DNA of 23,558 nucleotides from a virus. The notes below the pieces were generated by a model. The model did not search any database and was not told where the DNA came from. It saw nothing but the letters and a program-made list of their open reading frames with translations. A program made the position numbers and the translations under genes. The DNA is taken from the IMG/VR virus record IMGVR_UViG_3300046010_011548, positions 1-23,558 of that record. One strand, given 5' to 3'. Below are positions 1,028 through 7,393 of the stretch, in pieces (position 1 is the stretch's first letter; every line of letters begins with the position of its first letter).

Positions 1028-1150
1028 ATGTACGACGAACTTTGGACTGAGATTGTTGATGCTCCTGGGGAAATCTTCGACATTCCCGAACTTCGTGAAG
1101 ACGAAGGCTTTGACTTCAACGAATACCTTACTGCTGATTACGATTACTGA
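1028..1150 (+). CDS. acidic 40-residue hypothetical protein
   Basis: ATG at 1028 gives 40 residues, very rich in Asp, Glu and aromatics, ending in TADYDY. It sits just behind promoter P1 with a good TTGAGGG ribosome site. An in-frame ATG at 1010 would add MFLRDT, but it lies close to the predicted transcription start, so 1028 is preferred. The acidity and size fit a DNA-mimic or host-protein-binding early phage peptide, but nothing shows that directly. The next gene starts two bases after its stop codon. Confidence 0.6.
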   Translation: MYDELWTEIVDAPGEIFDIPELREDEGFDFNEYLTADYDY

Positions 1151-3233: not shown

Positions 3234-3493
3234 CTTACTCTAATCTTTCCAAGATTCGTCCGAAACTGAGAACATCTGGCAATGTGACAGGTAACTTCGG
3301 GCGACCCAAAGCTAAAGCAGGTTCTTCACTCAATGATCTCGGAATGACTAACGCAAAGACTGTCAAATGTACCACACAAGATGAATACCTGAATCGTCTA
3401 CATTATGCGTTTGATAATACCACAGATCCAAAGTTGCGTCAGTTCATTTATACTGAGATTCGTAAGATTCATGTTCAGCGAGGAACTTGGTAA
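3230..3493 (+). CDS. basic hypothetical protein, 87 residues
   Basis: ATG 3230 overlaps the upstream stop (ATGA). The protein is basic, with a Gly/Lys/Arg-rich disordered N-terminus (residues 1-40) and a helical C-terminus (DEYLNRLHYAFDNTTDPKLR...). No recognised domain. It is the second gene of a tight four- to five-gene unit beginning at 2561, all without internal promoters. The start at 3203 (an in-frame alternative codon) is disfavoured because it would overlap the upstream gene by 31 bases. Confidence 0.6.
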   Translation: MTYSNLSKIRPKLRTSGNVTGNFGRPKAKAGSSLNDLGMTNAKTVKCTTQDEYLNRLHYAFDNTTDPKLRQFIYTEIRKIHVQRGTW

Positions 3494-6536: not shown

Positions 6537-6730
6537 GCAGCAAAACATTCAAGAAAGAACTCACTGTGATGATGGAATCGAATGGTTTTGAGTTACAGCG
6601 AAGTGCCTCACATCTGGTCTGGAAACATGTCTCAGGTGTGCAAATCTTCACCAGTGCTACACCCTCTTGTCGTCATGCATTGAATCAAATTAAACGACAA
6701 ATACGCCAAAAAGGTGTGCAAATCAATTAA
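6533..6730 (+). CDS. HicA-like small protein
   Basis: A 65-residue protein resembling the HicA/YcfA fold (dsRBD-like mRNA interferase). It shows an N-terminal helix (TFKKELTVMMESNGF), then LQRSASHLVWKHVSG with His27 in the place of the catalytic His, a strand VQIFTSATP, and a basic C-terminal helix (ALNQIKRQIRQKG). No HicB antitoxin gene lies next to it: upstream is a 43-residue signal-like peptide, downstream a terminator. It may act on host or phage RNA, or be a domesticated RNA-binding protein. Coupled to the upstream gene by ATGA. Confidence 0.6.
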   Translation: MSSKTFKKELTVMMESNGFELQRSASHLVWKHVSGVQIFTSATPSCRHALNQIKRQIRQKGVQIN

Positions 6731-6750
6731 AAAAGGCTTTTTTTAATTAA
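6724..6750. terminator. probable bidirectional intrinsic terminator
   Basis: An almost perfect palindrome of A and T tracts around GGC: AATTAAAAAAGG / CTTTTTTTAATT. On either strand it forms an A-T-rich stem with a U tract. It begins inside the stop region of the HicA-like gene and would also end any leftward transcript from the promoter at 6864-6892. Confidence 0.6.
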
Positions 6751-6767
6751 GCTGAGTATTTTTAATG

Positions 6768-6794
6768 TTCTCAATAAGTGTTAGTTATTGAGAA
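6768..6794. repeat. perfect 10-bp inverted repeat
   Basis: TTCTCAATAA (6768-6777) and TTATTGAGAA (6785-6794) are exact reverse complements with a 7-base loop. No U tract follows on the plus strand. A third partial copy, GTTGAGAATGA, lies near 6811-6821. It could be an RNA hairpin of a leftward transcript or an operator. Confidence 0.7.
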
Positions 6795-6863
6795 TCAATT
6801 AGGGGTATTGTTGAGAATGAAAGACCCTTAGAAAGCCCAGTTCTTATAGCGATCTTAGCCCGC

Positions 6864-6892
6864 AGTCTACCACAACCGCGCAGAAATGTCAA
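6864..6892 (-). promoter_or_regulatory. leftward sigma-70-type promoter
   Basis: On the minus strand TTGACA (complement of 6887-6892), exactly 17 bases, then TAGACT (complement of 6864-6869). Perfect -35 and optimal spacing; the -10 matches TATAAT at four of six positions. No protein gene lies directly downstream on that strand. Confidence 0.45.
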
Positions 6893-6965
6893 GACCTCGG
6901 AGATTACCAAATCCGCACAGTCCTCCCAATTCTTATAAGGACCGCTGATAAATACTCTCACGGTC

Positions 6966-7026
6966 TTGACAGTTTCCCCCCTGCATCTTATACTGGCCAC
7001 AGTTAAGTCCTCGTGCCCCTAAAACC
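6966..7026 (+). promoter_or_regulatory. sigma-70-type promoter P9
   Basis: TTGACA (6966-6971), 17-base spacer, TATACT (6989-6994), then GGCCAC as in the early cassettes. It drives the gene at 7027 with a leader of about 26 bases. The TGTC(C)AC box is absent. The stretch before it (6795-6965) holds no plus-strand gene. It does contain two similar segments, CCCAGTTCTTATAG at 6836 and CCCAATTCTTATAA at 6925. Confidence 0.7.
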
Positions 7027-7194
7027 ATGTCAGTTTCTTATCTTCAAGCCCAGAAAAAGAATGTGCGTGTAACACTGGATCTTTCCGTGTACAGTGACTT
7101 TGATGCCCGACAGATTGATTGGCGTAAGTTATTCCAACTCGATGGTGATGAGACCGTGGAGGCTTATGTGGAAGACCTGGATGTAGACTGGTAA
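7027..7194 (+). CDS. acidic hypothetical protein, 55 residues
   Basis: ATG 7027 to TAA 7192-7194, 55 residues: MSVSYLQAQKKNVRVTLDLS, then a segment ending EAYVEDLDVDW. Beta-prone N-terminal half, very acidic C-terminal half. It follows a strong sigma-70-type promoter, has C-ending codons like the early genes, and fills the gap, so it is probably real. No family recognised. An opposite-strand frame of 94 codons over the same bases shows no sensible protein. Confidence 0.55.
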   Translation: MSVSYLQAQKKNVRVTLDLSVYSDFDARQIDWRKLFQLDGDETVEAYVEDLDVDW

Positions 7195-7267: not shown

Positions 7268-7384
7268 ATGACTCGTTCGATTGCACTTTCGCTGCTCGCA
7301 CAAGGTAACAACGGCAATGAGATTCTGAGCATTCTCGACTCTATCGCTGCCGACAATGTGGAGATTGACATTATCGAATTCTGA
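7268..7384 (+). CDS. conserved-looking 38-residue peptide
   Basis: ATG 7268 to TGA 7382-7384. MTRSIALSLLAQGNNGNEIL followed by SILDSIAADNVEIDIIEF. Peptides starting with RSIALSLLAQGNxGxEIL recur in cyanophages in my memory, always without function. One amphipathic helix plus a short strand. The 73 bases before it have no clear promoter. Its 3' end encodes IDIIEF and at the same time contains the TTGACA of the next promoter. Confidence 0.55.
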   Translation: MTRSIALSLLAQGNNGNEILSILDSIAADNVEIDIIEF

Positions 7385-7393
7385 TCGTATAAT
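7365..7393 (+). promoter_or_regulatory. perfect consensus sigma-70-type promoter
   Basis: TTGACA (7365-7370), exactly 17 bases, TATAAT (7388-7393): a full consensus match. It lies in the end of the 38-residue gene. The predicted start is near 7400, at the edge of a GGGTGC/GCACCC inverted repeat (7396-7421). No clear gene follows until 7585. Confidence 0.7.

Follow-up and report, generated by a model that had tools for sequence, protein, structure and literature searches.

The main finding of this study is that a short non-coding element at approximately positions 6720-6892 of the window, by which we mean the whole 23.6-kb virus record that was analysed, is probably a replication origin of T4-like cyanophages, at which a leftward transcript would open or prime the duplex. 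The nearest named relatives of the window are T4-like cyanophages (Kyanoviridae), which are among the most abundant virus groups of the sunlit ocean, and the literature that we searched describes no replication origin for them. Along the direction of its promoter, the element consists of the promoter, a leader often present in tandem copies, a box module and an A+T-rich tract (Table 1). A first-pass annotation of the same DNA, which had recognized several of these signals, read them as a small RNA gene. Its statements that the supported genes lie on the strand opposite to the candidate RNA and that no credible protein is encoded in this stretch both hold: the supported genes of the window all run rightward, leading into gp25, gp6 and gp7, and the sole minus-strand ORF of at least 60 aa in the stretch (6785-7000) has no match in Pfam.

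Table 1. Features of the element and of its immediate neighbours in the window
Feature	Position	Strand	Remarks
HicA-like ORF, 65 aa	6533-6730	+	Non-constant left neighbour; last bases overlap the A+T-rich tract
A+T-rich tract, including the A/T dyad at 6725-6748	6720-6766		Proposed unwinding element, possibly a bidirectional terminator
Box module, three TTCTCAA/TTGAGAA boxes	6768-6818		Boxes at 6768-6774, 6788-6794 and 6811-6817
Initial transcribed leader, GCGGGCTAAGATCGCTATAAG..., consensus GCtAAGATCACAAG	6820-6863	-	Conserved; start site expected near 6856-6858
Sigma-70-type extended -10 promoter, TTGACA-17-TAGACT	6864-6892	-	Promoter scan; recurrence in 154 loci
Divergent early-type promoter, TTGACA-17-TATACT	6966-6994	+	Promoter scan
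55-aa ORF, phrog_12516	7027-7194	+	Most constant neighbour of the element

The element is widespread and its setting is constant. In BLASTn searches, three separate pieces of the stretch were matched in non-coding DNA of different cyanophages, in the same order throughout. While a rigid consensus pattern run over viral contigs gave no match, a promoter profile built from the BLAST seeds and run instead on gp25 neighbourhoods and on IMG/VR DNA-pattern matches identified 154 loci (including a few overlapping pieces of one contig), with exactly one match per locus. The strand of the neighbouring genes is always opposite to that of the promoter—100/100 for gp25, 113/113 for the glycosyltransferase and 120/120 for the 55-aa gene—and the element lies upstream of gp25, whose start is at a median distance of 3.6 kb. 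A diverged form of the element, represented by S-RIM2, Syn9 and S-SM1, was found in 220 phage records, and further diverged forms are present in DSL-LC02 and S-WAM1. Judged by these comparisons, the element is non-coding and is present as a single copy in the genomes of hundreds of cyanobacterial viruses from oceans and lakes. In P-SSM2, the profile had no match upstream of gp25 and visual inspection of the large gap in this region revealed no such element; a search of a plasmid collection gave no match. Across six complete genomes there is no consistent switch of GC skew at the element; in Sf-FS3, the detrended GC-skew minimum falls within ~400 bp of it.

The most constant part of the element is its leftward promoter, which is present where the first-pass annotation had placed it, with a -35 TTGACA at 6892-6887, a -10 TAGACT at 6869-6864, a 17-nt spacer and the TG of an extended -10. 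On its own, the copy in the window says little, because, with a score of 10/12, it belongs to a set of 99 promoter-like sites, of which chance alone would account for 75. It is the recurrence that is telling. Among 110 distinct promoter sequences, 109 have a recognizable -35, which is TTGACA in 88; the 17-nt spacer is kept in 103 of the 109 copies with a -35, and the TGn of the extended -10 is found in 106. From this pattern of conservation, the promoter is under strong selection. Conservation extends into the leader, where AAGATCACAAG is kept across copies and is tandemly repeated in several relatives (such as loci L074 and L146), so that the leader, too, may be an iteron. The repeated units measure ~31-36 bp and are present in 3-5 copies in L146, L074 and L144, and a shorter unit is seen in L020.

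The box module that follows shows a different kind of constancy, in which spacing is maintained and sequence is exchanged. The perfect 10-bp hairpin sequence reported in the first-pass annotation is indeed present as an inverted repeat, TTCTCAATAA-7-TTATTGAGAA, at 6768-6777 / 6785-6794. That annotation missed a third TTGAGAA box at 6811-6817, and the "hairpin" is therefore two of three boxes spaced ~21 bp; when boxes are placed at random, three of them fall within 50 bp of one another in 0.17% of cases. The kind of box differs between copies of the element: TTCTCAA in the window and its close relatives, a TGATACGAAT type, TGATACGAATTCATATCATTATCA, unclassified repeats and, in the largest class, TTTTCCACA. 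Spacing is 22 bp for direct and 20-22 bp for inverted TTCTCAA boxes, and 20-22 bp for direct and 13-14 bp for inverted DnaA-like boxes, which, as far as sequence can tell, is as in helically phased initiator arrays. Two loci (L198 and L052) have the promoter, A+T-rich tract and HicA-like gene in common with the window, but TGATACGAAT-type boxes replace TTCTCAA, an arrangement indicating that one box module has been swapped for another between homologous flanks. Such exchange fits DNA-binding sites and is not what would be expected of a conserved structured RNA. The TTCTCAA and TGATACGAAT modules match no known initiator's site, and the TGATACGAAT dyad is absent from the two Synechococcus genomes searched. 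Sf-FS3 has the promoter and the A+T-rich tract and is without a clear box array. In another locus (L100, promoter pattern match at 1083-1110, minus strand), repeats of GTGTTACA/TGTAACAC, a further type of iteron, take the place of the module.

The identity of the largest box class would fit a role for a host initiator. TTTTCCACA is the reported DnaA box of Synechococcus elongatus PCC 7942, Anabaena PCC 7120 and Cyanothece (PMC4674748). It is 96-fold enriched in the modules relative to the rest of the same loci (45 forward, 5 reverse), and at least one exact box is present in 31/82 dereplicated copies. DnaA boxes together with an A+T-rich tract are also found in Syn9, S-SM1, S-RIM2, S-WAM1, LC02, LC03 and S-SM2, and the window copy is without them and has the other kind of box described above. 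There are few DnaA boxes per complete genome (1 to 10), and in 5/6 complete genomes they cluster only at the element, with 0.002-0.03 pairs expected by chance. Against this, the exact box is unclustered at the record starts of Synechococcus WH7803 and RCC307, which is the side expected for dnaN and the origin, so that use of TTTTCCACA by the DnaA of marine hosts is presumed; at the WH7803 record start, the presumed dnaN location, there are near-matches only, such as TTTTCCACG. For the TTTTCCACA pairs in the WH7803 and RCC307 genomes, we found no link to a known origin; one such pair in the RCC307 chromosome (L356, 3411-3452) is 33 bp apart and upstream of an ORF. In the DSL-LC03 record, five TTTTCCACA boxes at intervals of 12-18 bp form a second array (80507-80579, corresponding to ~3306-3378 of locus L002), ~160 bp past the promoter and on the side away from the A+T-rich tract.

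Beyond the boxes, the A+T-rich tract has the properties expected of the proposed unwinding element. In 88% of copies, it ranks in the top 5% of 40-bp windows of the locus by A+T content, versus 35% for controls (random stretches), and in S-SM2 and S-WAM1 almost no other part of the genome melts as easily. Within it, the A/T dyad AATTAAAAAAGGCTTTTTTTAATT is self-complementary at 22/24 positions, and a T-run A/T dyad is present in 17/82 dereplicated copies versus 0.1% of shuffles. The first-pass annotation had called the tract a bidirectional terminator. The dyad is there and may provide a 3' end for the leftward transcript, but its function as a terminator can only be suggested, because it is not listed by a terminator scan, which requires three G-C pairs.

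These features have parallels in known phage origins. In T4, uvsY adjoins gene 25, and the cyanophage element has a similar setting upstream of gp25. T4 oriF, or ori(uvsY), consists of a promoter and an A+T-rich unwinding element, and its transcript forms an R-loop that primes leading-strand synthesis (PMC3016281); likewise, the promoter of the cyanophage element points towards a proposed A+T-rich unwinding element that follows within ~100 bp. There are two differences. First, T4 oriF has a MotA-dependent middle promoter, whereas the cyanophage element, instead of a MotA-type middle promoter, has one of early sigma-70 type with a full -35 and an extended -10. Second, unlike oriF, for which no initiator boxes are described, it has a phased box array between promoter and A+T-rich tract. 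In that respect it resembles T4 oriE, in which an early-mode promoter is combined with evenly spaced iterons and which its relatives retain at syntenic positions (PMC3016281), since it too is a single syntenic copy with an early promoter and evenly spaced repeats (20-22 bp). However, where the iterons of oriE are 12-nt direct repeats, the boxes of the cyanophage element are of several exchangeable kinds and include host DnaA boxes, which occur in both direct and inverted arrangements. By comparison at the sequence level, the cyanophage element combines features of oriF and oriE, with host DnaA boxes in addition in many genomes. As in bacterial oriC and DnaA-dependent iteron origins, clustered TTTTCCACA boxes (PMC4674748) adjoin an A+T-rich tract in some copies, but unlike oriC, the element is short, carried by phages and organized about a conserved promoter, and only one class of its copies, to which the window copy does not belong, has DnaA boxes.

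These features suggest a mechanism in which host RNA polymerase would start leftward at the promoter whose conservation is described above, and an initiator protein would bind the phased box array just downstream. At TTTTCCACA boxes, this initiator would be host DnaA; at the TTCTCAA boxes of the window, it would be another protein, of phage or host. Together, binding and transcription would open the A+T-rich tract next to the array. The leftward transcript, which may be terminated at the A/T dyad, would by analogy with T4 oriF serve as leading-strand primer or as an R-loop for replisome loading. A broader proposal, which we rate as slightly less than an even bet, is that Kyanoviridae have one conserved cassette origin in which a fixed promoter and A+T-rich tract are combined with an exchangeable initiator-box module, with host DnaA in many of these phages and a different initiator in others, including the window. 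Exchange of the module between near-identical flanks would make it possible to follow how viruses change from one replication-initiating protein to another, and the element provides a precise site in cultured phages (Syn9, S-SM1, S-SM2 and S-RIM2) for testing origin use, DnaA dependence and R-loop priming.

The same boxes could be read in another way, as a regulatory hub or decoy at which host DnaA or Fur-family proteins regulate divergent early transcription or are titrated by the large number of phage copies, with no start of replication. DnaA boxes are indeed found in the modules of many phages, and the TTCTCAA core ATTCTCAATAA falls inside the published consensus of cyanobacterial FurA, AAATAAATTCTCAATAAAT (PMC4788461). 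Moreover, the divergent rightward promoter is 74 bp from the leftward one and is followed by the same 55-aa gene. However, the distance from the leftward start downstream to the boxes ranges from tens of bases to over 150, and the rightward promoter is located on the other side of that start; such a placement of the boxes would be odd for ordinary control. The 11-mer core ATTCTCAATAA has zero occurrences in the genomes of Synechococcus WH7803 and RCC307 and is therefore not a common operator in these hosts, and the constant joining of the A+T-rich tract to the boxes would be left unexplained. We thus consider this reading unlikely.

A regulatory RNA of ~130 nt that extends from the promoter to the A/T dyad, with an action in trans or an antisense effect on the HicA-like gene, is the reading in line with the first-pass annotation. 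It is in our view improbable, and to read this DNA as the gene of a small RNA that regulates HicA is probably a mistake. Like phage small RNA genes, the element has an orphan promoter, no ORF and a possible terminator, the T-run A/T dyad being found in a minority of copies, and the strength and conservation of the promoter, the excess of T-run dyads over shuffles and the conservation of the leader AAGATCACAAG beyond the needs of the promoter would all be consistent with an RNA product. Some class-W RNAs also fold better than shuffles (z of -3.7 for L017 and L202), but z is only -1.96 for the RNA of the window and -0.6 for that of L206. Unlike in phage small RNA genes, the transcribed part is exchangeable, being swapped for unrelated box types, and there is no conserved RNA structure. 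A covariance search had been proposed with that annotation as a check; among eight class-W copies, the hairpin has zero compensatory changes, the ninth pair is broken in 5/8 relatives and another pair in L201. In the same eight copies, the unpaired first box is kept in 8/8, although hairpin pairs break. Rfam, at gathering and relaxed thresholds, returned nothing relevant in the stretch. Nor is control of the HicA-like gene a conserved function of the element, because that gene adjoins only 15/154 copies. A stable RNA is nevertheless a possible by-product of leftward transcription, because about a fifth of copies have the T-run A/T dyad.

Very improbable is a third reading, in which the element is only an insulator, that is a bidirectional terminator between two early operons with an incidental leftward promoter: its location between rightward transcription units, the dyad in a minority of copies and the strong rightward promoter adjoining it would fit, but the conserved leftward promoter and leader and the phased, exchangeable boxes would be left unexplained.

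The two genes that flank the proposed origin in the window differ in constancy. The match of the HicA-like ORF to Pfam HicA scores 19.2 bits, below the cut-off of 27, and genes related to it are present elsewhere in three of the loci (L117, L169 and L141). The 55-aa gene is beside the element in 120/154 loci, at a median of 127 bp from its promoter, and encodes an acidic protein for which Pfam has no match; this protein may have a role at the element, or its gene may be the first of the divergent early operon. Farther to the right, at 7365-7393, the window has a rightward sigma-70 promoter of perfect consensus (TTGACA-17-TATAAT, 12/12), which starts within a short ORF.
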